Origin: Jezberella montanilacus
GTDB taxonomy: Bacteria > Pseudomonadota > Gammaproteobacteria > Burkholderiales > Burkholderiaceae_B
Reading direction: 5' to 3'
DNA: 64,000 nt
Assembly (NCBI RefSeq): GCF_003003055.1
Contig: NZ_PVTV01000014.1
Location: forward strand, 186,001 to 250,000
Shown here: positions 27,753 to 48,975 of the stretch, in pieces
How positions within the stretch are numbered: the stretch's first letter is position 1
How the letters are laid out: every line of letters begins with the position of its first letter
The notes under the pieces: generated by a model
The model's database searches: none
What the model was told of the DNA's origin: nothing
Seen by the model: only the letters and a program-made list of their open reading frames with translations
Translations under genes and position numbers: made by a program

Positions 27753-27880
27753 CTGATCCATACCCCGCGACAAGCAAGTCTGAACTTCACTGCGTGTGAA
27801 TAAAGTCCCTTTGCTGTGGGGTCAGGATACAATGAACTCAGAGACAGCCCGCTTTTCATTTTCAATGGTTGGGGGTTTAC

Positions 27881-28600
27881 ATGCGCAAAACAAAGTTTTC
27901 GTTTGCTATTGAGCGCAATAAAAATAAGATAGCTGAAAAAATCGCAGAACAACAAATTCTAGCGAGACGCAATACCTGGCACAGCAGACCTTTCTGGCAC
28001 CGTGTGCTCAAGCGAGCAATGGATACCGTCGGCTCACTGTCACTATTCATCGCCTTATCCCCCTTGATGTTGTTGACTGCGCTTTTAATAAAACTCACAG
28101 ACGGCGGTCCGGTGATTTTCTGGCAAAAGCGGGTTGGCAAATGGGGACATGTATTCAGCTTTCCCAAATTTCGGTCAATGGTTGTGCACGCTGAAACCAT
28201 GCAGGCTGCCCTTCAACCTTTCAACGATCATGGCGTCGGATCAGTCACCTTTAAAATGAAAAAAGACCCGCGTTTAACATGGGTTGGTCGCTACATTCGA
28301 CAGGCTAGTATTGATGAGCTGCCGCAGCTCTGGTGCGTACTTAGGGGCGACATGTCTTTGGTAGGTCCTCGGCCACCACTACCCGAAGAGGTCACGCATT
28401 ACTCGCTCAATGATCGCCGGCGTCTGGATATTGAGCCGGGTTTAACCTGCTTCTGGCAAGTGAAGGGGCGTTCAGCAATCCCTTTCCCCCAACAAGTCGA
28501 ACTGGATGTGGATTACATCGAGAATCCAAGCCTCGAAGAGGATTTCAAATTGCTTGCAAAAACCTTACCCGCCGTCATCAAAGGCAATGGTGCAAGCTGA
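27881..28600 (+). CDS. Polyprenyl-phosphate sugar-1-phosphate transferase (initiating enzyme)
   Basis: Membrane enzyme that loads the first sugar phosphate onto undecaprenyl phosphate to start each repeat unit. The 239-residue protein is a short monotopic type. A hydrophobic segment follows KRAMDTVGS. The family signatures are GPVIFWQKRVGKWG, FPKFRSM, DPRLTWVGRYIRQASIDELP and MSLVGPRPPLPEEV, and it ends with PGLTCFWQVKGRS. The ATG at 27881 has GGGGG five bases upstream; the frame's earlier TTG at 27869 is ignored. The next gene overlaps its end by 14 nt, so the two are co-translated. Confidence 0.93.
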   Translation: MRKTKFSFAIERNKNKIAEKIAEQQILARRNTWHSRPFWHRVLKRAMDTVGSLSLFIALSPLMLLTALLIKLTDGGPVIFWQKRVGKWGHVFSFPKFRSMVVHAETMQAALQPFNDHGVGSVTFKMKKDPRLTWVGRYIRQASIDELPQLWCVLRGDMSLVGPRPPLPEEVTHYSLNDRRRLDIEPGLTCFWQVKGRSAIPFPQQVELDVDYIENPSLEEDFKLLAKTLPAVIKGNGAS

Positions 28601-30527
28601 ACAAGCAGAAGCCCCTCCTCTTTTGCCACTCGGCTCAACGCCCCGGCATGCCATCCTGATCGCCTGTTGGAATAGTACAGACCCGCAGCTGCAAGCGCTC
28701 AGTATCGACAGCGCAAGTACCCCTCTGATGGCTCGTCCTTTAGTCCAGCGAGCAGTCGAACAACTGGCCAACCTGGGATGCATACGACTGACCGTCATCA
28801 CAGGTACGCAGAGCGCTGCGTGCCAACGACTGCTGGGTGATGGCGAACGCTTTGGTGTGACTTTAGATTATGTGAACGCGCAAGATAGCGATCATTACCA
28901 GACAAAGCTGGTCGGGACGTTAGGTATCACAGAAGAACGTGTTTGGATTGCCTCAGCGACGACGGTGCCTGACAGTGACGCATTGCTCGAACTGATGACA
29001 CGACCTGAATCGTTGCGCAATCGTATTGTTGTCTCAAAAAATGACAGTAAAAATCGGTGGCTAGGCTGGGGGATTCTGGATCCGAAATTAGCGCTTGCAC
29101 TCATTCTAAAATCCCACAGCGGATCAGATTTAGAACAGGCCATACTGGACGAACCGACGCTTCAACGGGTTCAGTGCACCGATGCGCTTACTCTGGAATC
29201 GGGGGCGAGCGCCCTACAGTCCCTTATGTATCTCATGAAACGAGGTCATCCGGCAGGTGTCATTGCCAAGCGCATGCATTCGCCAGGCGTTTGGATCGCT
29301 GGGGATTCAACCATTGACCCAGAGGCGACACTCAATCCACCTATCTACATAGGCCATCAGGTCAGAATCGATGCGGGCGCAACGGTGGGACCAGGCGTGG
29401 TGATCGAAGCAGGCTCGATCATAGAGGCTGGCGTGTTCATCCGAAACGCCTGGATACTGCCACACACCTATGTGGGGCATCAAACTACCTTGATTAATGT
29501 AATCGTATCTGGCAACAGCGTACTGAGTCTCGACCATCAGGTTTTGATTAAGGTAACTGATCCTTTTTTGCTGGATGGTGACATGACCACACGCACAGCA
29601 ACGCAAGGGCCCGGACTGGTCGAACGCCTAACTGCAGTGATGCTCTGGTTGATTCTGGCGCCCTTAGTTTATTGGTGGCGACGACGACTACAAATGAAGC
29701 AGACGCCTACCGTCGCAGGCGCTTATAACGTTGCATTCCCTGATCGGATGACCTATGGGTTTAAGACCCAACTCACCGCGCTCAAACCTGAGATAAATCT
29801 GGCGCAAGATCGTTTACCCCGCGCGCTGGCCTTTCATTTTTTCAACACGTTTTATCCAGGTTTGATCGATATCTGGTGCAGTCGCGTCAAATTCATCGGA
29901 CTAAAGCCGCGCAATATGGATGAAATCGTTCATCTGACTCAGACTGAACAATTACGCTATGCGCATTGGCCAATCGGGCTCATTAACCAATCCACCCTGA
30001 ATGGTCAGGAATCGAGAGAAATACCGACACGACAGGGTATGCCCCTACGTCGTTCAGTCCAATTGGTACTAGGATACGGACAGCAGGTTCATCGCAGTGT
30101 CGCTCAACCAGTTCTTTCTCAATACTCGGCAACGTCACCAACCGATACTGAGCCACGATTAACACAACTCTCGCGAACTGAAGATCTGATGAAACTCTCC
30201 CAAACCAAACCGGGTATCGCCGTTGTGCTGCTCAGCAGTGAAAGCCTTGACATTAAAAACGTCAAAAATTTTCGAGCTCGAATCAAACCTATCATCGAAC
30301 AGAATCACACGATCTTGCTTGATATGCATAAACTCACTTTCATCGATAGTGCTGGCCTAGCCGCCCTGCTCTACTGTTTGAGAGCCATGACAAAAAAGCA
30401 CGCCACGCTGCGTTTGTTTGGCATGTGTCAAACCGTACACGCTCTGTTTGAACTGGTGCGCATGAGTCGCGTGTTCAAGATCTATTCAACCGATGTTGAA
30501 GCACTGAAAAATCTGCCTGAGGGCTAA
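28587..30527 (+). CDS. Multidomain protein: NTP-transferase-like, left-handed helix, PGT-like membrane part, STAS
   Basis: A 646-residue protein of unknown role in the polysaccharide operon. The first 200 residues resemble a degenerate sugar nucleotidyltransferase. Residues about 232-318 show hexapeptide repeats of a left-handed beta helix (IYIGHQVRIDAGATVGPG and IEAGSIIEAGVFIRN). A hydrophobic helix follows near 346-364. The segment near 370-470 contains FIGLKPR, where initiating transferases have VGPRP, so it may be a decayed phosphoglycosyltransferase. The final 110 residues are a STAS domain with the classic FIDSAGLAALLY; the phosphorylatable Ser is residue 588. It starts at ATG 28587 inside the end of the previous gene. 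The STAS and beta-helix calls are firm; the two others are tentative. Confidence 0.7.
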   Translation: MVQAEQAEAPPLLPLGSTPRHAILIACWNSTDPQLQALSIDSASTPLMARPLVQRAVEQLANLGCIRLTVITGTQSAACQRLLGDGERFGVTLDYVNAQDSDHYQTKLVGTLGITEERVWIASATTVPDSDALLELMTRPESLRNRIVVSKNDSKNRWLGWGILDPKLALALILKSHSGSDLEQAILDEPTLQRVQCTDALTLESGASALQSLMYLMKRGHPAGVIAKRMHSPGVWIAGDSTIDPEATLNPPIYIGHQVRIDAGATVGPGVVIEAGSIIEAGVFIRNAWILPHTYVGHQTTLINVIVSGNSVLSLDHQVLIKVTDPFLLDGDMTTRTATQGPGLVERLTAVMLWLILAPLVYWWRRRLQMKQTPTVAGAYNVAFPDRMTYGFKTQLTALKPEINLAQDRLPRALAFHFFNTFYPGLIDIWCSRVKFIGLKPRNMDEIVHLTQTEQLRYAHWPIGLINQSTLNGQESREIPTRQGMPLRRSVQLVLGYGQQVHRSVAQPVLSQYSATSPTDTEPRLTQLSRTEDLMKLSQTKPGIAVVLLSSESLDIKNVKNFRARIKPIIEQNHTILLDMHKLTFIDSAGLAALLYCLRAMTKKHATLRLFGMCQTVHALFELVRMSRVFKIYSTDVEALKNLPEG

Positions 30528-30565: not shown

Positions 30566-31129
30566 ATGTGGACAATCTCTCTTGATCGTGCCCTGAGCAA
30601 ATGGGCGTTGATGAGCACGCAGATGGGATGGGGCCAGATTGTGGTCTTGCTCATCTATCTTACTTGCGTGTGGTTGTGTTTTGTTTGCGGTTATTCCGCG
30701 CGCCAGCTAAAGGAAAATTCAATAGGATGGTTTACTGCTGCATTCATCATTGTTCTATTGCTTATCGAGAATACCCTGCACTTTACCGAACTGTTTGTTT
30801 TTCTCATGCGTGATGTGGCAACTCGCTCGGGTTGGTACGAGGACCGACGATACTTTCAATCCATCACACTATGGGGTGTTGCTTGCGTCACGCTCTATTT
30901 CTTTGCTTGGTTGCGCCATCGACTCGATACGCATTGGGAGCTGCACAGCAATATCATCATTGGCCTTGCCATACTCATCGCGCTGAGTTTTTTACGCATT
31001 ATTTCGTTACACGATACCGATGCGGTGCTTGCCGAGATCTATCTGGGCGTCCGGCTTGAGCGGGTGTTTGAATTAACCGGCTTAAGCCTCGTTTTCTATG
31101 GGACGTTAAGAAAACTGAGGACAATTTAA
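30566..31129 (+). CDS. Unknown integral membrane protein
   Basis: A 187-residue protein I do not recognise. About five hydrophobic segments are visible: near 22-42, 53-78, 98-114, 125-145 and, less clearly, 168-180. Short charged loops contain RHRLDTHWE and LHDTDAVLAE. It lies 38 nt after the STAS fusion gene in the same direction, with AAGGG upstream of its ATG, so it is probably co-expressed with the initiating transferase. It ends 2 nt before the convergent glycosyltransferase gene. A role in polysaccharide assembly is inferred only from position. Confidence 0.65.
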   Translation: MWTISLDRALSKWALMSTQMGWGQIVVLLIYLTCVWLCFVCGYSARQLKENSIGWFTAAFIIVLLLIENTLHFTELFVFLMRDVATRSGWYEDRRYFQSITLWGVACVTLYFFAWLRHRLDTHWELHSNIIIGLAILIALSFLRIISLHDTDAVLAEIYLGVRLERVFELTGLSLVFYGTLRKLRTI

Positions 31130-37881: not shown

Positions 37882-38894
37882 GGCTGGGTCGGACTCAAAC
37901 GTCCACCCGACGTATCGCGCCATGCGCGATCTAGCAAGGCACCATAAGCAGCGTAAGCGGCAGCCTCAGCCGGGCTTGCAAGCAAGCGAGCTTTACACTT
38001 GCGGAGGCTACAGAAAAGTCGCTCGAGGCCGTAAGCACACCAAGCGCCCCGCCACCCGTGCTGCTTGCGGTAGTAAAGAAGATAGCTGCGAAGGCGCCAG
38101 CGTTCGATTTGAGCGTTCGCTTGCGAAAAATGCTCAGTGCCTAAGGTTCTCGCAGACGCACCGCCAATATGCAGGCATTTGAGTTGCGGCCAATAAAGCA
38201 CCACCAGGCCAGACGCTCGCATTCGCTTGCATAGATCGACCTCCTCAAAATACATAAAGAATCGTTGGTCGAAGCCACCAAACTCCTCAAAGAGCACCGC
38301 AGGGATAAATACAAAGGCACCTGTGATCCAGTCTACCTCGCCGGACACTGTTGGATCGTCTGCCCCACGCATAAAACGAGCAAAGAGCGGGTGCTTTGGA
38401 AACCGACACGCTAAACCCGACAATCTGAAGAACTCATCGAGTAAGGTCGGAAAGCGTCGAGCGCAGACCTGTCTGCTGCTGTCCAGAGACAGAAGCTCGC
38501 CGCCGCCTAAGCCGACTTCTGGATGCTTATCCATCAGTTCGACTCCAGCCTTGAGCGCACCGGGCTTGGGCAAGGCATCAGGGTTGAGTAACAATAGATA
38601 TTGTCCGTGCGCCTGTTTCGCGGCCAGATTATTACCAGCCGCAAAGCCAAGATTCAAATCGGACCGGATAGCTTTTACCCAAGGGTAATGTGACGTGATG
38701 TGTATGAAACTATCGTCTTGTGACGCGTTATCCACCACAATGACTTCGGCGCTGACTCCCTCGGTATGCAAATCAAACGAACGCGTCAGTTCCGCGTCCA
38801 GATGATCTAATAAAGACCCGATCAGTGCAGTCGAGTTATAAGTCACTATCAGGATCGAAAGCCGCATGGGATTCGTTTGTGTCATGACTACCAT
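37875..38894 (-). CDS. GT2 glycosyltransferase, rhamnosyltransferase-like
   Basis: Family 2 glycosyltransferase of up to 339 residues. LSILIVTYNS, VIVVDNASQDDS, LNLGFAAGNNLA, LLLNPDALP and FMYFEEVDLCKR are the signatures of the rhamnosyltransferase/WcaA-type group. The frame offers ATG at 38894 and 38885; the latter lies 2 nt after the stop of the preceding gene, the former overlaps it. It is in the same tight operon as the flippase. Donor sugar unknown. Confidence 0.88.
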   Translation of the reverse strand: MVVMTQTNPMRLSILIVTYNSTALIGSLLDHLDAELTRSFDLHTEGVSAEVIVVDNASQDDSFIHITSHYPWVKAIRSDLNLGFAAGNNLAAKQAHGQYLLLLNPDALPKPGALKAGVELMDKHPEVGLGGGELLSLDSSRQVCARRFPTLLDEFFRLSGLACRFPKHPLFARFMRGADDPTVSGEVDWITGAFVFIPAVLFEEFGGFDQRFFMYFEEVDLCKRMRASGLVVLYWPQLKCLHIGGASARTLGTEHFSQANAQIERWRLRSYLLYYRKQHGWRGAWCAYGLERLFCSLRKCKARLLASPAEAAAYAAYGALLDRAWRDTSGGRLSPTQPW

Positions 38895-41185
38895 CCATCA
38901 CTAGGCGTAGACGCTAAAAACGACTGATAGATTCCGCTGAGTTTGAGCACATTTGTCATCAGGTTGAAATCACACACCACCTTTTGTCTTGCCCGGCTTG
39001 CGATTTGCTCGCGCAAGGCGGGCTGGGTCATCAGACGTTCTAACTGATGCACTAATGAGTCGAGGTCACCCTGCGTCGCCAGCAAGCCAGTTCGGTTGTG
39101 TTCAATCAGTTCTGGAATCCCGCTGACAGGTGTCGAGACGCACGGCACGCCACACGACATAGCCTCCATCAATACAACAGGGATACCTTCATTCAAACTG
39201 GGCAGAACAAAAATATCAGCTTTAGCAAACTGGTCGAGTACGGCTTGATGCGCTAGAGCTCCAGTCATCACGACTTTATCTCCGATCTCTGCAGCGGCGA
39301 TGGCTTGCTCAAGACGAAGCTGATCCGGACCGGCACCTACCAAGACCAACTTAAAGTCGTGGCCTAGATCCCGCAATTTTGCACAAGCTTGAATGAGCAA
39401 CAATTGGCACTTAGATGGGATCAGTCGACCGACACAGAGCAAACGCTGGGGTGCCACATGAGACTGCCTTGCCGCGAAAGCAAAACGATTGGTCTCAACA
39501 CCGAGTCGACAGACGATGAGTTTGGCCCAGTACTCCGGTGCGCTGAGCCGCATCAACACTGCTTTGAAATACTGACTCATGCAGATCAACCTATCGGCCT
39601 CTTTAACCTTTAAAGCCAGATGTTGTCCCGTGACGTCGTCAAATTCGTCGGAGCCGTGTATTGATAGTGATAAGTGGCAGCCTGTCAGCCGCTTGACGAG
39701 CAACCCAACGGTTGCTGCCGCATTGCCAAAGTGCACATGCAAAAAAACCAGATTATTTTGCCGCATCCACTTAGCAATAATGGCTGCCTCTAGGGCATAC
39801 GCCAAACCCAGCAGACTGCATCGACGGCTTTCCAGACTGAAGCCAAAACAAAACATTTTGAACAGAACGATCGGTTGAAAAGACCAGTAGAACAAGGCGT
39901 GCAGTGCTCCGCTATAACCCTCTGCCTTCACGTAAAACGTATGATTGGCTTCCTGTAACTGCGCCGTATTTTGGGTGAGATCTTGCGAGCGCCCCAGATG
40001 AGCGGCTGAATTAATCGATGCCGTCAGAATCTCGTGACCGAGACGCCTGAGCTCTTCGATTTCTTGAAGAATAAAGGTGTGAGAGGTAGCAGGATAAAGG
40101 CTGATCAAGTATGCGAAACGAGGGAGCACGTTGGGAGCTGTCCGAAGTGCATGCTTATGACTAACTAGACCAAGGATTCGCCTCTGAATATGAGTGCGAT
40201 ACCATACCAACTGACCAAGCACGGCAGGCACTTTGCAAAAGAAGGTGTGCATGGCGTACTGCCAGCGCAGCCATCGGTTGTTTGGCGCTTTCCAGGCACA
40301 GCGTGACGCGGTGCGCGCCAAGGCAAGCAAACCAGACGCTACAAACAAACCGAACAGCCACGGCGTGTTGAGGCACGCTAACAAAAGCATCAGTGGTAAC
40401 ACTAAAAATAATAGGCCTTGCCACCAATCTCGGCGTGCCTCGTATTGCCAGAGCGGATTGCCGATCTGACGCATCTGGTGGGCCACCTCAGCGAGACAAA
40501 TACCAGATCTAAAAGCCCGATTCCAATATTCCTTAAAACTCGTCATACCCAAATCATGGCGAGCCATCGGCAAATCAAACAACTCAATGAGCCAGCCGTT
40601 CGCGCGGAGTCGAGCACAGAGCTCTGGCTCTTCTCCCCCCTGCAACGCGGGATTAAAACCATCCACAGCAAGCAGACAACTGCGCCGAACAAACGCGTTA
40701 CCGCCAAAAAATAAGATCTCACCTACTGGAGTGATCCAGTCTAGATCGATCATCTTATTAAAAAAAGAGTGGTTGGGATGGGCTTCTCGCAGATGGCCCG
40801 TGATCGCGCAGCGACGCGAGTCAGTCATCTTTGACAGCGAGAACGCAACGAAGTCTGGAGATATCATGCTATCCCCATCCAGGAACATAATGAACTCACC
40901 GCGCGCGAGCTGTAACCCTAGATTGCGAGCCTTCGCAGCACTCGGATGCGCATCGTCAAGCATATAGGCAGCGGCATCAAGGCGCTTTGCCTCTTCCATA
41001 CTTTGGTCTGTCGAACTCGAATCAATATAAATGCACTCATGCGCAATACCCCGCCAATCGACTTGCTGCACCGCTAAGAGGCATTGCGTCAGACGTGCGC
41101 CCTCATTGCGACCGATCACGACAACAGAGACCACGGGGGCAGTGGCGCTTGAAGCGTGCAGCAAACCTTCTGTTTGAACGGCCAT
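38888..41185 (-). CDS. GT2-GT4 bifunctional glycosyltransferase
   Basis: A 765-residue fusion. Residues about 18-330 are a GT2 domain with VVVIGRNEG, YIDSSSTDQS, the DGDS metal-binding motif and GGEEPELCARLRANG, followed by two hydrophobic helices. Residues about 345-765 are a GT4 (GT-B) domain with HVHFGNAAATVG, SIHGSDEFDD, LLCVGRLIPSKCQ and NEGIPVVLMEAMSCGVPCVS. Each half keeps its catalytic signatures, so the protein could add two sugars in sequence. It starts 9 nt after the Wza-like gene. Confidence 0.88.
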   Translation of the reverse strand: MAVQTEGLLHASSATAPVVSVVVIGRNEGARLTQCLLAVQQVDWRGIAHECIYIDSSSTDQSMEEAKRLDAAAYMLDDAHPSAAKARNLGLQLARGEFIMFLDGDSMISPDFVAFSLSKMTDSRRCAITGHLREAHPNHSFFNKMIDLDWITPVGEILFFGGNAFVRRSCLLAVDGFNPALQGGEEPELCARLRANGWLIELFDLPMARHDLGMTSFKEYWNRAFRSGICLAEVAHQMRQIGNPLWQYEARRDWWQGLLFLVLPLMLLLACLNTPWLFGLFVASGLLALARTASRCAWKAPNNRWLRWQYAMHTFFCKVPAVLGQLVWYRTHIQRRILGLVSHKHALRTAPNVLPRFAYLISLYPATSHTFILQEIEELRRLGHEILTASINSAAHLGRSQDLTQNTAQLQEANHTFYVKAEGYSGALHALFYWSFQPIVLFKMFCFGFSLESRRCSLLGLAYALEAAIIAKWMRQNNLVFLHVHFGNAAATVGLLVKRLTGCHLSLSIHGSDEFDDVTGQHLALKVKEADRLICMSQYFKAVLMRLSAPEYWAKLIVCRLGVETNRFAFAARQSHVAPQRLLCVGRLIPSKCQLLLIQACAKLRDLGHDFKLVLVGAGPDQLRLEQAIAAAEIGDKVVMTGALAHQAVLDQFAKADIFVLPSLNEGIPVVLMEAMSCGVPCVSTPVSGIPELIEHNRTGLLATQGDLDSLVHQLERLMTQPALREQIASRARQKVVCDFNLMTNVLKLSGIYQSFLASTPSDGW

Positions 41186-43702: not shown

Positions 43703-44155
43703 TTAGATCCTGTGGATGATGCGGGCCGGTATACCCACTGCGGTACAGTCATCGGGCACGTCTTCCAGCACCACAGCATTTGCTCCAATCCAAGCTCGAT
43801 TCCCAATATGGATACCACCGAGCACTTTCGCGCCTGCCCCCACATAGACATCGGAACCCAGCACTGGGGCGATACCACTTGCCACAATCCCGATCGTGAC
43901 TTGCTGCATGAGCACGCAACGCGGACCGATTATCGCGTTCTGATGCACCACAATACCGGTTGGATGCGGCAAGTCCAGATCAGCACAGATACTTGCCAGG
44001 CGATGAATATCCGAAGCAGTGATCGTGCTCCAAAACTTGTGGCGTAGGCTTGCGTATAACTTAAGCCCCTTGCCAAGCCAGTCGGTTCGACTAACAAACC
44101 TTTGATAGTCGAGAATACTTTTGACGAGAATCACGTGAGACCGAACCTTAGGTCG
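43703..44155 (-). CDS. CysE-like hexapeptide acetyltransferase
   Basis: Left-handed beta-helix acyltransferase of about 150 residues in the serine-acetyltransferase-like group found in polysaccharide loci. Hexapeptide repeats run through GIVVHQNAIIGPRCVLMQQV, GSDVYVGAGAKVLGG and GNRAWIGANAVV, ending in VPDDCTAVGIPARII. ATG 44155 overlaps the stop of the GT4-DUF535 gene by 8 nt, which favours this start over upstream ones that lie deeper inside that gene. It probably acetylates a sugar of the repeat unit; the substrate is inferred from context. Confidence 0.83.
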   Translation of the reverse strand, partial: RPKVRSHVILVKSILDYQRFVSRTDWLGKGLKLYASLRHKFWSTITASDIHRLASICADLDLPHPTGIVVHQNAIIGPRCVLMQQVTIGIVASGIAPVLGSDVYVGAGAKVLGGIHIGNRAWIGANAVVLEDVPDDCTAVGIPARIIHRI

Positions 44156-46430
44156 CATGGATGAGTACCCCAATGCGTGCCGCCAGATCAAGATCAAGCT
44201 TGTTGAGTAATTGGTAACGCCTTTCATAGGCTGCGCGCTTTCGGGATGGGATATGCTCTGCGATTTTTTGATGGTACTGCACAGGGATCTGGTAGAAACC
44301 TGTGATCGTATCTTGCACACCATTAAATTCGATCCATTGTTGATCGTAGTCCGTCACTAATTGTTGGCGATCAAACGGTCCAAAAAACGGATGTCGATGA
44401 TGACGATGAGCCTCTGACACCCCAAGCAAGCACGAGAACGCTAATCGTCTGGCGATCATTTGAAGTGAGCTCAGCAAAAGACTCCGGGCTGACAAACCAT
44501 AAAAGTCTTGTGTGATTTTTTTATAAATTTGCGTACGTTCATCACTGGCAATTGAGTGAGCCATCCCTTGTACGGCACCCATATAGACAATAGTCATGCC
44601 AGCCTCACGTCCAAACGTAAAAGCGATGGACGAAACCCTGACCTCATGCTTGAAAATATTCAAAACGAGCTCGCCTTCTCGCTTAAACCACTCGGGTCGG
44701 TCAAGCACAAGCCTCAGACCCTCTGAGAAGGAAGACAGGTCTAACAGTAGGGCTGGGGATTCGCTCACAATGCCCAGCAGGACCGGATAGTTTTTTTTGA
44801 GTATTTCATAATGTCTGGCTTTCTTATCTAGCCGCTGTTCAACTGTCCAGGTATTGTTGATATACGGCCACTCACACATGCCGATTACATCTATTTGATT
44901 GATGAACAGAGGCGGCAAATCAAGTACAGAAATTCGCTGAAAAAACTGCAACAAGGCAGAGCGATGCGCTAGGGCTGCACCCCACAGAATCATTCTTCTT
45001 TTGAAACCAGACAGGCTGGATTCGGGGTGAATACTGCGAGCTGCTTGCTTGATCACAGGTAGCAGACTTAACAAGCCAACCGAATGATTTATCTTTGAAG
45101 CTTCAGCCACGCCAAGAGACTGATGAAAGTCGGGCTTAGGCCCCTGACTTGTGACCCATTGCAAAACCTGAAGGACTTGTGCTGCCTTCGCATCCCAGCT
45201 GAATAACTGTCTTGCACGGCTGTAGGCGCGCGCTGAGCGAGACTCAATTTGTTCAGGCTGCCCTGCCAACTGATCAAATAAGTGCTTGAACTGCTCAATG
45301 ATTACAGTGCGCGAAGCCATGGCAATAAGAAAGCCCGTATCGGCGGTGACCAGTTCACCTGGACCGCCATAGTTGACGACAGCAGGCACCAAACCAAGTG
45401 CCATGGCTTCAAGTACAACGGCACCGCCAAATTCTCGGATACTGGGAAGCACGAGCAGATCCCTGGTGACCAGCAGCTCCTGCAAACCATGATGAGACAC
45501 CCAACCTGTTAGCTCGACCCGATTTGAGATGCCAAGATCAAGGATCATCTTTTCGAGAAGAGGTCGTTGGGGACCCTCACCAATGATCGTCAGATGAATG
45601 CGTCCCGCTCGGATCAACGCAGCAGCAGCCTCGAGCAGCATATCTGCCCCCTTGTACGGCACCAAACGACCAACAAAGACAAGCCTAAGCGGTACAGCGC
45701 AGGTGCGCAGGCGTCTGAGGGTGAAGCGCGCAAGATCGATGCCGTTTTCCGGGATGTAGATACACTTGTGGTGATAGCGCTGTGGCTCAAGTGCAAGCGT
45801 GTCTTGAGACCCGACAATGATAGCCGCAGCATAGTCGCGGGTCGAACGATAACCGGGCAAAAGTTTATAGAAGGCTCGCAAGTAACTCAGCCATTCATTT
45901 TCGTCACGCCTGGCAGCGTCAAACTCGTGTGGCCAGGGAACGCCCCCGTTTAAAGGGCCAAGCACAAAGGGCACGCCGGCGCGGGCACAACGTTTGGAAA
46001 GTAAGCTGGGGGCTGTCGGGCTGAGCGGCGTGATGCGATACACGACGTCGAACTGATGGTCACCGATTGCTCTGCCCCACGCTCGCCATAGTAACCATTC
46101 AAAATACGGGTAGGCAAAGGAAGATAATGCCGTGACGACGGTCCAGCCCTTGCCTTCACCGCCACGCAGCCAGGTCGCGAGTTGATACATCGGCTTAGCC
46201 ACACGCTCTGAGTCAATCACAGAAAAATCCTGACCAAGGACGAGACCTGCTCGTTGAAGTGCGCCCTGATTGCGAACCTGAGTGACGAGATGACCGGCTG
46301 TCAGTCTCATGACTGCGATGGCATGTGACCAGCCTTCAAGGGGCACACTGACCCACTCTGGGTTGCAGGCCTCAGCAATGATCAATACACGGAGTTTGCG
46401 CTCCGACTTCACCGAATCAGACATCACCAT
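44148..46430 (-). CDS. GT4 glycosyltransferase fused to VirK/YbjX (DUF535) domain
   Basis: About 760 residues from ATG 46430, which has AGG upstream; the frame runs on to a TTG at 46463. Residues about 10-395 are a GT4 enzyme with ITPLSPTAPSL, FVLGPLNGGVPWP, LRLVFVGRLVPYKGAD and REFGGAVVLEAMALG. Residues about 473-755 are a complete DUF535 domain, recognisable from FSEGLRLVLDRPEWFKREGE, GAVQGM, TQDFYGLSARSLLL, VSEAHRHHRHPFFG, YDQQW and PSRKRAAYERRYQLL. DUF535 proteins are linked to envelope stress and LPS modification, but their biochemical activity is not established. The two modules are usually separate proteins. Confidence 0.85.
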   Translation of the reverse strand: MVMSDSVKSERKLRVLIIAEACNPEWVSVPLEGWSHAIAVMRLTAGHLVTQVRNQGALQRAGLVLGQDFSVIDSERVAKPMYQLATWLRGGEGKGWTVVTALSSFAYPYFEWLLWRAWGRAIGDHQFDVVYRITPLSPTAPSLLSKRCARAGVPFVLGPLNGGVPWPHEFDAARRDENEWLSYLRAFYKLLPGYRSTRDYAAAIIVGSQDTLALEPQRYHHKCIYIPENGIDLARFTLRRLRTCAVPLRLVFVGRLVPYKGADMLLEAAAALIRAGRIHLTIIGEGPQRPLLEKMILDLGISNRVELTGWVSHHGLQELLVTRDLLVLPSIREFGGAVVLEAMALGLVPAVVNYGGPGELVTADTGFLIAMASRTVIIEQFKHLFDQLAGQPEQIESRSARAYSRARQLFSWDAKAAQVLQVLQWVTSQGPKPDFHQSLGVAEASKINHSVGLLSLLPVIKQAARSIHPESSLSGFKRRMILWGAALAHRSALLQFFQRISVLDLPPLFINQIDVIGMCEWPYINNTWTVEQRLDKKARHYEILKKNYPVLLGIVSESPALLLDLSSFSEGLRLVLDRPEWFKREGELVLNIFKHEVRVSSIAFTFGREAGMTIVYMGAVQGMAHSIASDERTQIYKKITQDFYGLSARSLLLSSLQMIARRLAFSCLLGVSEAHRHHRHPFFGPFDRQQLVTDYDQQWIEFNGVQDTITGFYQIPVQYHQKIAEHIPSRKRAAYERRYQLLNKLDLDLAARIGVLIHAT

Positions 46431-46476
46431 CTGGCAGCCTATTGTGAATACTCGCGGAGACAAGTCCCCAGCCCGA

Positions 46477-48975
46477 TCAGTTCAGGGCGTTTCGATCTCT
46501 TGACTTCAAGCCCACCATTCGAAAGGTGTTCGCATCCAGATCCAACAGTTGTCTGGGCTCAACGTTCATGGCATTCCACCGAAAAGTCTTAGCGGCGACA
46601 ATCAGCTCTACGACACTCAAGCTCTGATAGTCAAAGCTTAAGTCGGTGAATGCATCGGTAAGGACTAGCTGGTCAATTTTTGCGTAGAGTGGCTGACAAG
46701 CCTCACGTTCAAGACTGCTAATCCGTCCGCGAGCTTCAGCACAAGCTAACCACTGCTCGGAAGGCAAGCTATATGCAGTCTTAACCCCTTTTTGCCTCAA
46801 GGTCTGAACACATCCAATTACGTTGCGATCGCTGAGGTCAATTTCTGTCGCTAATGAGACCAAAACAGTCTGACCGGCAGATAATGTCGGTTCAACCAAC
46901 GCCAGAAGTTGCTGACAGAACCTGCTTTCTTTTAGGTCACGTACCTGCAACCAAAGGGAAAGCTTATTGCGGGAGGCAATCTCAACGACGGTGCCGATAG
47001 CCGCTCCTGGTACCGATGCGCTTGAAACGGTTAAAGGGACTGCGCCCTGAGAATTGGCAACAACATCCAGTTGAAGACAATTGGCTACCATCGCGCCACG
47101 TAAAGCCATGGCGATCGTATTAACGGCCGAGTAACACAACGCGGATTGATCAAGCAGATGGGTTTGGCGCGCCACAAATATGCGAGTGGGATCATCGGCT
47201 GAATTAGTTGCGGGAGCAGATGCCCCCGCTGCTGAGCCGTGCACATCCGCGTTATTTGTATTGACATAGGTATCGCCAGAGGACGTTCTTCGAACCAGCA
47301 CGGGCGGGATATAGGCGTCTTGTGGTGCCCCGATAAGCCGTGGCAGCACCAGTGCAGTCTCTGCGACCTGCCCGCCCAACAAATCAATGATGGTTGCCGG
47401 GATTTGCGCGAGCGTTGTCAACGCAGTCGTCTCTGACAAGTGTTTATAGTTATTAAACAGGTCGGGATACATCAGCCGTGCAGACGCGTTAAATGAGACG
47501 AGCAGCGGAACCCGAGCCATTTCGTGCGTAAAGCGTGACGATTCATGGCCTCTCGACGTAAACACCGACTCGCCATGATCTGAAAAATAAATCAGCACAG
47601 TGGGATTTTCAAGCCGACTGAGCTTTTCAATGACTTGGCTTACGGTGCGATCGACATAGCGTATTGCGGAGTCATAATTTTCAATGTTCTCAGTTGCACC
47701 TCGAACCGTCCCAGCAATGGCCGCATCACTTCTATTTTTAAAGTAATCATCGACGTGCGGGTAAAAATCCTTCGGGATCGCCCCCAGGTATCCATTCATG
47801 CCACCGTGTCCCGCAAACGAATGCAAAAAAACGACGGAACTATTCGCTGAACTCAATTTTGGTATCAGCACATCGAGATGCTTTAAAAAGAAGTCTCCGT
47901 CATAGGGCCGGTTGATCATGTACTCAGCATTACCCAGACGGGTGGTATCCACACTGTATTGCTTTTGAGCATGCTTAAAGATGATTGAACCCGCCATGTT
48001 CCAAGTGCCTTCTTCCCCTTGGTTGCTGAGTAAATAGCTTGGGATGTGGTTGTATGCAAGCAGGTCGGGAAGACTAACTCGAGTCCTTGAGGTGATGGGC
48101 AATAAATCCTGATTGGTGTGAAGTCCAATACTCAGTGCTTCTAGCAACGAGTCAGAGGTGTGAGTAAAGGTCGACATCACATTTTTAAATACCAGCACCT
48201 GACTGTCTTGTTGTGCCAGACGAGTCAATTCTGGGGTTGTGTCGCGAGGGTAACCATAGAGGCCCATGTTCATGACTGTCGTTGATTCGCCAAGGTAAAT
48301 CACGACATTCAATGGTCGATTAAACACAAGTGGCATTGCGGGATTGTCGAAGTTTTTGGCTGCCCTATTGAATATTTCGGAGTTGCTTTGATAGCTTAGG
48401 GTTGCTCGGACCGACAAAATATATAAGGCGACTGCCGTGAGGCAAAGCCCCGCCAAGAAGCAAAAAACAAACGTCGTCTGTCCGGAGAAGTTGCCTTTAC
48501 GTCGAACGACAAGCAATGCAGAAAAGATAAAAAAGCCAGCAATCCCATACAGTGCTAATCTTCGATAAGCAATGAAAGGCACAAAAATACTGAGCATGCC
48601 CGGAATGAAAAATAGCGCTTCGTGCAAGTCGAATTTCTGTGTCTCACTGAACGAATCCGCGCCAAGCCCGAGCAGCCAGACAGACACGGATTCATAGTAA
48701 ATCACCCAGGCAAAGGCGATGAGGGTCACCAACACCAACGGTACCCAATACCGTTTAATTAAAAAACTTGCCGCGACCAAACAAATGCCGAGAAGAAAAA
48801 GGTATTCGGGCTGCTGCTGCGAGACGATCTCAAAAAGCCTACCAACGTTATATCTCGCAAGCTCTTTTGAACTCGGCCTGATACCGAGCAGGTAAGCCGC
48901 CATGGTCATGCCTGTCAACACGCCCACACCCGCAAGAAGGTAGCCCCAACGCCGGCGGACTGCGGTCACGCACAA
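46477..48975 (-). CDS. Phosphoethanolamine-transferase-like sulfatase-fold enzyme with extra C-terminal domain
   Basis: Inner-membrane enzyme of 832 residues. The first 190 residues contain five or six helices. The alkaline-phosphatase-type catalytic domain (about 215-550) has YLGESTTVMNMGLYGYPRDT, with the GES nucleophile/metal region near 228, FLHSFAGHGG, and YFSDHGES near 466. This matches the EptA/CptA/OpgE family that adds phosphoethanolamine to glycans or lipid A. After a low-complexity Ala/Ser/Asn linker near 580-600, about 230 further residues form a domain I cannot assign; alternating strand/helix segments such as NCLQLDVVAN and LSLWLQVRDLK hint at a TIM barrel. It overlaps the methyltransferase gene by 10 nt. 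Confidence 0.8.
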   Translation of the reverse strand: MCVTAVRRRWGYLLAGVGVLTGMTMAAYLLGIRPSSKELARYNVGRLFEIVSQQQPEYLFLLGICLVAASFLIKRYWVPLVLVTLIAFAWVIYYESVSVWLLGLGADSFSETQKFDLHEALFFIPGMLSIFVPFIAYRRLALYGIAGFFIFSALLVVRRKGNFSGQTTFVFCFLAGLCLTAVALYILSVRATLSYQSNSEIFNRAAKNFDNPAMPLVFNRPLNVVIYLGESTTVMNMGLYGYPRDTTPELTRLAQQDSQVLVFKNVMSTFTHTSDSLLEALSIGLHTNQDLLPITSRTRVSLPDLLAYNHIPSYLLSNQGEEGTWNMAGSIIFKHAQKQYSVDTTRLGNAEYMINRPYDGDFFLKHLDVLIPKLSSANSSVVFLHSFAGHGGMNGYLGAIPKDFYPHVDDYFKNRSDAAIAGTVRGATENIENYDSAIRYVDRTVSQVIEKLSRLENPTVLIYFSDHGESVFTSRGHESSRFTHEMARVPLLVSFNASARLMYPDLFNNYKHLSETTALTTLAQIPATIIDLLGGQVAETALVLPRLIGAPQDAYIPPVLVRRTSSGDTYVNTNNADVHGSAAGASAPATNSADDPTRIFVARQTHLLDQSALCYSAVNTIAMALRGAMVANCLQLDVVANSQGAVPLTVSSASVPGAAIGTVVEIASRNKLSLWLQVRDLKESRFCQQLLALVEPTLSAGQTVLVSLATEIDLSDRNVIGCVQTLRQKGVKTAYSLPSEQWLACAEARGRISSLEREACQPLYAKIDQLVLTDAFTDLSFDYQSLSVVELIVAAKTFRWNAMNVEPRQLLDLDANTFRMVGLKSRDRNALN

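Follow-up and report, generated by a model that had tools for sequence, protein, structure and literature searches.

In Vibrio fischeri, the STAS protein SypA and the kinase/phosphatase SypE belong to the syp polysaccharide locus, and STAS proteins lacking a SypE-type partner are also known in V. vulnificus and V. parahaemolyticus (PMC4517449). The means by which SypA controls polysaccharide, and its target, are described as unknown in the accounts consulted (PMC4517449, PMC8256260). Control at the level of the initiating phosphoglycosyltransferase (PGT) has been described in Myxococcus xanthus, where the phosphorylated response regulator EpsW activates the PGT EpsZ post-translationally (PMC12802240). 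Two further STAS proteins are relevant: All4160 of Anabaena, a glycosyltransferase with an N-terminal STAS domain (PMC8256260), and MlaB of Escherichia coli, a subunit of an ABC transporter with Thr52 at the interface, for which phosphorylation is not shown in the account consulted (PMC7367683). Among the open-licence papers listed in searches that linked STAS or partner switching to PGTs, exopolysaccharide, pseudoenzymes or fusions, none describes the arrangement reported here, as judged by title and opening of the abstract.

The locus analyzed here lies within a 64,000-nucleotide stretch of Jezberella montanilacus DNA (contig NZ_PVTV01000014.1, positions 186,001 to 250,000), referred to as the window. 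In it, a STAS domain is joined in a single reading frame to the end of a protein encoded next to an initiating PGT. The features of the locus, in window coordinates, are as follows.

27869..28600 (+), true initiating PGT of the small monotopic type, likely start ATG 27881 (Bac_transf 206.6 bits, whole model)
28587..30527 (+), fused 646-residue protein: pseudo-NTP-transferase, left-handed beta-helix, membrane helix, pseudo-PGT, linker, STAS
28644..29156 (+), nucleotidyltransferase-like region, about residues 20–190, lacking GxGTR (Pfam in relatives, Foldseek)
29283..29531 (+), left-handed beta-helix with hexapeptide repeats, about residues 233–315 (Pfam Hexapep, 33 bits)
29595..30098 (+), PGT-like remnant, residues 337–504, including hydrophobic helix 344–367, lacking Asp-Glu (alignment of profiles A4 and A5; six relatives above the Bac_transf cut-off)
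30108..30188 (+), linker, residues 508–534, where relatives have an intergenic gap (frame and codon test; separate genes in relatives)
30189..30527 (+), STAS domain, residues 535–646 (Pfam, fold match to SpoIIAA)
30566..31129 (+), small multi-pass membrane protein, 38 nt after the fusion gene

The upstream PGT retains its catalytic dyad (D149-E150 in the numbering of alignment A5), and its gene shares 14 nt with the fusion gene. The membrane protein is followed by a GT2 enzyme, EpsU-like at a score under the cut-off of that model, and by a chain-length/tyrosine-kinase-like protein, also below cut-off. Glycosyltransferases, a flippase-family protein, a Wzy_C protein, and an export protein are encoded farther along the window, and the fusion gene is therefore read as lying in a Wzx/Wzy-type polysaccharide locus. 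Three other frames of the window were recorded: 44148–46463 (−), in the same locus, a 771-residue protein combining a group-1 glycosyltransferase and DUF535 in one frame, an unusual fusion; 38888–41185 (−), a 765-residue frame comprising a GT2 and a GT4 glycosyltransferase; and 46477–48975 (−), a Sulfatase/CptA-like protein. A long frame directly upstream of the PGT in two relatives, G002 and G016, is Sulfatase/CptA-like by appearance.

The sequence-only reading had described one intact frame of 646 codons with hexapeptide repeats, a hydrophobic helix, and a complete STAS domain with an Asp-Ser motif, and these modules were recovered. The frame reads without a stop from 28587 to 30527. In the fused protein, Pfam places STAS at 539–638 (E = 3.2e-15; 56.2 bits against a cut-off of 22.6) and Hexapep at 253–287 (33 bits against 27), and the NCBIfam model ant_ant_sig also scores above its cut-off (55.1 against 53.45). 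The motif IDSAGL begins at residue 586, so that the serine is residue 588 (codon 30348–30350); D587-S588 aligns with the DS of six relatives, and a phosphorylatable Ser/Thr after Asp is thus present. In relatives, the free STAS gene begins at the counterpart of Met535. An AlphaFold model of the whole protein, built from a six-row alignment, had a mean pLDDT of 49 and was too poor for use outside the STAS domain, where pLDDT was ∼77–87 except at the ends; the helix at 344–367 is seen in this low-confidence model. Foldseek matched the STAS part to SpoIIAA-like structures (TMt up to 0.82; SpoIIAA 1thn, 0.81) and the N terminus to RmlA-type enzymes, the latter at low TM and over low-confidence residues. 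When solved structures were searched by sequence, pyrophosphorylases, proteins with a beta-helix, and anti-sigma antagonists were matched weakly, each where expected.

The remaining modules are recognized through homologues. Relatives were collected with profile A2, made from the non-STAS part, and with a broader 12-row profile, A4. At E ≤ 1e-10, A2 matched four genomes among the 32 examined for the genus and the same four among 268 of the family. In the order sample, 55 of 399 genomes were matched at E ≤ 1e-5, namely the window genome, G398 and G525 at full length, and 52 partial matches, which were left out of the member count; in the family of G398, four of six genomes matched, two by the N terminus only (left out). 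In the class sample, A2 matched 62 of 369 at E ≤ 1e-5, mostly partially, and A4 matched nine of 369 at E ≤ 1e-20: six full-length proteins, G805, which is cut by a contig end, and the partial G990 and G810, both left out. The 13 members are thus G000 (the window genome), G002, G016, G026, G398, G525, G721, G851, G1019, G788, G805, G829, and G935. A pattern search of genome contigs with the single fused protein returned no relative, an alignment search of genome contigs returned three loci (G016, G002, and G026), and plasmids gave single-domain matches only, in four records. An 805-residue open frame in G1019, considered as a second fusion, proved to be a backward extension of the gene into the overlap with the upstream PGT. 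The earlier remark that no described protein is known with this order of modules in an exopolysaccharide locus needs dividing: without STAS the order is that of a conserved family, and the fusion to STAS was found in the window genome only.

Six class relatives of similar length were scanned with Pfam, a set that leaves G1019 outside. The NTP_transferase cut-off was passed by all five of those with an N terminus, whereas the fused protein itself stays below it (13.1 against 21.2 bits). Bac_transf was passed by all six, only over about positions 88–178 of 179, the C-terminal half of the model and not the whole catalytic domain, and the window protein gave no Bac_transf match at E ≤ 1. In a plain profile search the window protein alone gave no match to the PGT profile at E ≤ 10, and G002, G016, G026, G398, G525, and G829 gave matches under the inclusion threshold. 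With hhalign, the family profile A4 aligned collinearly with the profile of true PGTs, A5, starting at the membrane helix and continuing to the end (Prob 83.9, E = 7.8e-6). Because the window protein alone matches neither the PGT profile nor Bac_transf, its assignment runs through the class relatives. The NTP-transferase-like module and the decayed PGT that had been suspected around FIGLKPR (from residue 436) are in this way both upheld.

Both catalytic signatures are lost across the family. The Asp-Glu dyad of PGTs is absent, on reading the alignment, from 13 of 13 members, with Thr-Phe in the corresponding columns of the window protein as read from the hhalign alignment, and GxGTR is replaced in all 12 members that have an N terminus, whereas the true enzyme of L096 retains it. 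For this reason the fused protein is probably no enzyme, and its non-STAS part would represent a conserved pseudo-enzyme family. The earlier proposal that the STAS end switches or docks an enzyme is accordingly kept as to the switching or docking and revised as to the enzyme.

In neighborhoods of ∼3–18 kb, several of which end at contig ends, a true PGT lies directly upstream of the pseudo-enzyme gene in 8 of the 13 members (G000, G002, G016, G026, G398, G525, G721, and G1019). The contig is cut on the PGT side in G851 and G805, and no PGT was found upstream in the stretch read for G829 and G935. G788 has a PGT domain fused to a WecG-type glycosyltransferase farther upstream (L093 5223–6635 (+)). 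STAS is fused to the pseudo-enzyme in one member, G000, and is the next gene in five (G002, G016, G026, G398, and G525; that of G016 lies on a second contig, together with the end of the pseudo-enzyme gene). A gene for a SpoIIE-type phosphatase is found nearby in seven, these five together with G788 and G805. It follows STAS directly in G398 and G525. A single gene, for a PAS protein (by Pfam call in G002), intervenes in G002 and G016; the intervening gene of G026 encodes a solute-binding protein, and there the SpoIIE frame leaves the contig. No STAS was found near the SpoIIE genes of G788 and G805, the former of which also carries an HATPase_c_2 gene. Neither STAS nor SpoIIE occurs in the stretches read for G721, G851, G1019, G829, and G935, so the switch does not accompany every member of the family. 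A role as a switch is supported by the genes for a SpoIIE phosphatase and an HATPase kinase that lie close to the free STAS gene of relatives. Elsewhere, the G319 locus L096 (7092–9515 (+) and 2518–4088 (−)) has a WecG-type glycosyltransferase fused to a beta-helix region and a free STAS gene adjoining a true nucleotidyltransferase gene, another polysaccharide locus with STAS.

The order in G002 is PGT, pseudo-enzyme, STAS, PAS protein, PAS-SpoIIE-HATPase protein, membrane protein, and GT2; that of the window is PGT, pseudo-enzyme::STAS, membrane protein, and GT2, two genes fewer. A run of PGT, pseudo-enzyme, STAS, and SpoIIE/HATPase genes, in this order, is found in G398 and G525, which belong to another family of the order, and separate genes are for this reason likely to be the ancestral state. 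The membrane protein at 30566–31129, whose G002 counterpart gives a weak 7TMR-DISM match below cut-off, still adjoins STAS in the window despite the missing kinase/phosphatase.

The reading we favor, at a shade under an even chance, is that the non-STAS part is a regulatory pseudo-enzyme acting on the PGT and targeted by a SypA-like STAS switch, which fusion has hard-wired here. Its N-terminal half would correspond to a nucleotide-sugar pyrophosphorylase (NTP-transferase plus beta-helix) without the catalytic signature, and its C-terminal half to a PGT without the catalytic Asp-Glu. The pseudo-enzyme would pair at the membrane with the live PGT encoded next to it and set the activity of that PGT, and the beta-helix half may sense the supply of nucleotide sugar. 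That a live PGT should pair with a dead one is conceivable, since WbaP is described as a homodimer (PMC10942596). In the ancestral arrangement, the free STAS protein would be phosphorylated by the HATPase kinase and dephosphorylated by the SpoIIE phosphatase encoded nearby, and would bind the pseudo-enzyme, thereby turning the initiation of polysaccharide synthesis on or, alternatively, off. With STAS built into the pseudo-enzyme and the kinase/phosphatase gene gone, the switch in the window genome is probably locked in the STAS-bound state. More tentatively, a class of regulators may be represented, in which a dead nucleotide-sugar enzyme combined with a dead PGT pairs with a live PGT under the control of STAS; the fusion would then name the target of STAS proteins in polysaccharide loci.

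Alternatively, the protein might have nucleotidyl- or acyltransferase activity in the polysaccharide pathway, with the beta-helix acting on a sugar, and STAS would merely dock it close to the membrane complex. Many proteins with a beta-helix are acyltransferases, Hexapep is above its Pfam cut-off here, and the gene is placed among glycosyltransferases; against this stand the uniform loss of GxGTR and of the PGT dyad described above, which makes an active enzyme unlikely.

A SpoIIE/HATPase gene is absent from the window locus, and the kinase/phosphatase of G002 found no match in the window genome in a search that had no positive control. Genome searches with PF07228 (SpoIIE) and PF13581 (HATPase_c_2) carried controls. 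The single protein matched by the former carries PP2C_2 and Pkinase domains; the latter matched five, in all of which the best ATPase family is HATPase_c, three also having HisKA, so that these five are of the histidine-kinase type, not RsbW-like. PF01740 (STAS) matched a single protein of the genome, the fused one. A cognate RsbW-type HATPase_c_2 kinase and SpoIIE were found in the same genome in G002, G398, and G525 and not in G000. As judged from these profiles, the window genome has lost the SpoIIE gene, and no convincing substitute was found in it. Elsewhere in this genome, L097 484–2229 (−) joins a PP2C phosphatase and a protein kinase in one protein.

With its partner gene missing, the STAS domain might be an unused, decaying tail and the fusion without a function of its own. 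Six of the 34 positions that are invariant in six other STAS proteins are altered in the window, including the residue after Ser588; the far relative G319, however, likewise alters 6 of 34. In a relative-rate test with G525 as the outgroup, the window STAS showed 20 lineage-specific changes against 7 in G026 (p = 0.019) and 15 against 7 in G002 (p = 0.13). For the pseudo-enzyme part, p was 0.44 against G026, and in the comparison with G002 the window lineage was the faster (p = 0.025); the PGT gave p = 0.59 and 0.86, respectively. The excess of STAS over the pseudo-enzyme part was not significant (p = 0.08 with G026, 0.80 with G002). The result is mixed, and the suggested faster evolution of STAS, which would fit decay, is weak evidence. 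Moreover, identity to the genus relatives is 50%–53% for STAS, against 36%–40% for the pseudo-enzyme part (61%–62% for the PGT), and the intact frame, the STAS score of 56 bits, and the retained DS motif all speak against decay, so that we regard a mere relic as improbable, to the same degree as an active enzyme.

A STAS domain acting on some other target, such as a regulator of a sigma factor or a different kinase, with the pseudo-enzyme as a membrane anchor only, is considered less probable still: STAS proteins classically bind anti-sigma kinases, but none of the five HATPase_c_2 matches is RsbW-like, and fusion and adjacency both indicate the pseudo-enzyme as the partner.

Finally, the junction was examined. 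In the linker, the other two frames contain two stops each between 30096 and 30189, and the codon score is best in the frame of the ORF (−1.4 against −6.2 and −7.3), a weak signal. The pseudo-enzyme and STAS genes lie in different frames in G002, G026, G525, and G398, with gaps of 50, 47, 31, and 41 nt, and in G016 they share a frame with two TGA codons between them. The fusion could have arisen by loss of stops or, if base calls are wrong, could reflect one error; as the frames differ in four of five relatives and are shared in one, a single base error is unlikely to lie behind it. By eye, the linker DNA resembled the leader of the STAS gene in G002; this likeness was rejected, since 263 of 2000 shuffles were equally good, and L020 and L019 were worse. 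Free STAS could still be made if translation also began internally, at ATG 30189. That homologues carry the modules as separate genes, which had been named beforehand as a warning of a frame error, is true of all five relatives with an adjacent STAS; evidence for the error itself did not emerge, with one genome of the species seen. The least probable explanation is thus an artefact of assembly or sequencing, in which one wrong indel, able to mask a gene end given the stops in the other frames, or one wrong stop-codon base in the linker joins two genes, because the linker codon score, the frame already common to both genes in G016 (no frame change being needed), and an assembly of 19 contigs rated 100% complete all argue against it.

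In the favored reading, the natural fusion serves as a "Rosetta stone" for the target of STAS proteins of polysaccharide loci: together with the adjacency in relatives, it indicates a concrete one, the pseudo-PGT encoded with the initiating PGT, and suggests that dead paralogues may regulate PGTs. A related architecture is that of GMPPA, a non-catalytic regulatory subunit in GDP-mannose pyrophosphorylase, which shares the NTP-transferase and beta-helix arrangement but is without the membrane, PGT, and STAS parts; GMPPA gave a weak sequence match at 203–301, and the GMPPA/GMPPB complex a low-TM match to the model. As described, SypA resembles the free STAS of relatives in its polysaccharide locus, its conserved serine, and the combination of kinase and phosphatase in one protein, and differs from the window STAS, by description, in being free-standing and not fused to a pseudo-PGT protein; the open question of its target becomes one of direct binding and activity tests. 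In the EpsW-EpsZ pair, a small signaling domain likewise controls polysaccharide post-translationally at the initiating PGT (PMC12802240), but the domain is a receiver and not STAS, the PGT is large, and no pseudo-enzyme intervenes in the system described. All4160 also joins STAS to a protein of a polysaccharide pathway (PMC8256260), although, compared by description only, its STAS domain is N-terminal and attached to a glycosyltransferase. MlaB shows that a STAS protein can directly regulate a target other than a sigma-factor system (PMC7367683), but it is a separate protein with an unrelated target. As far as these accounts extend, the parts are known and the arrangement is new, the literature supporting separately each half of the proposal, control by STAS and control of the PGT.
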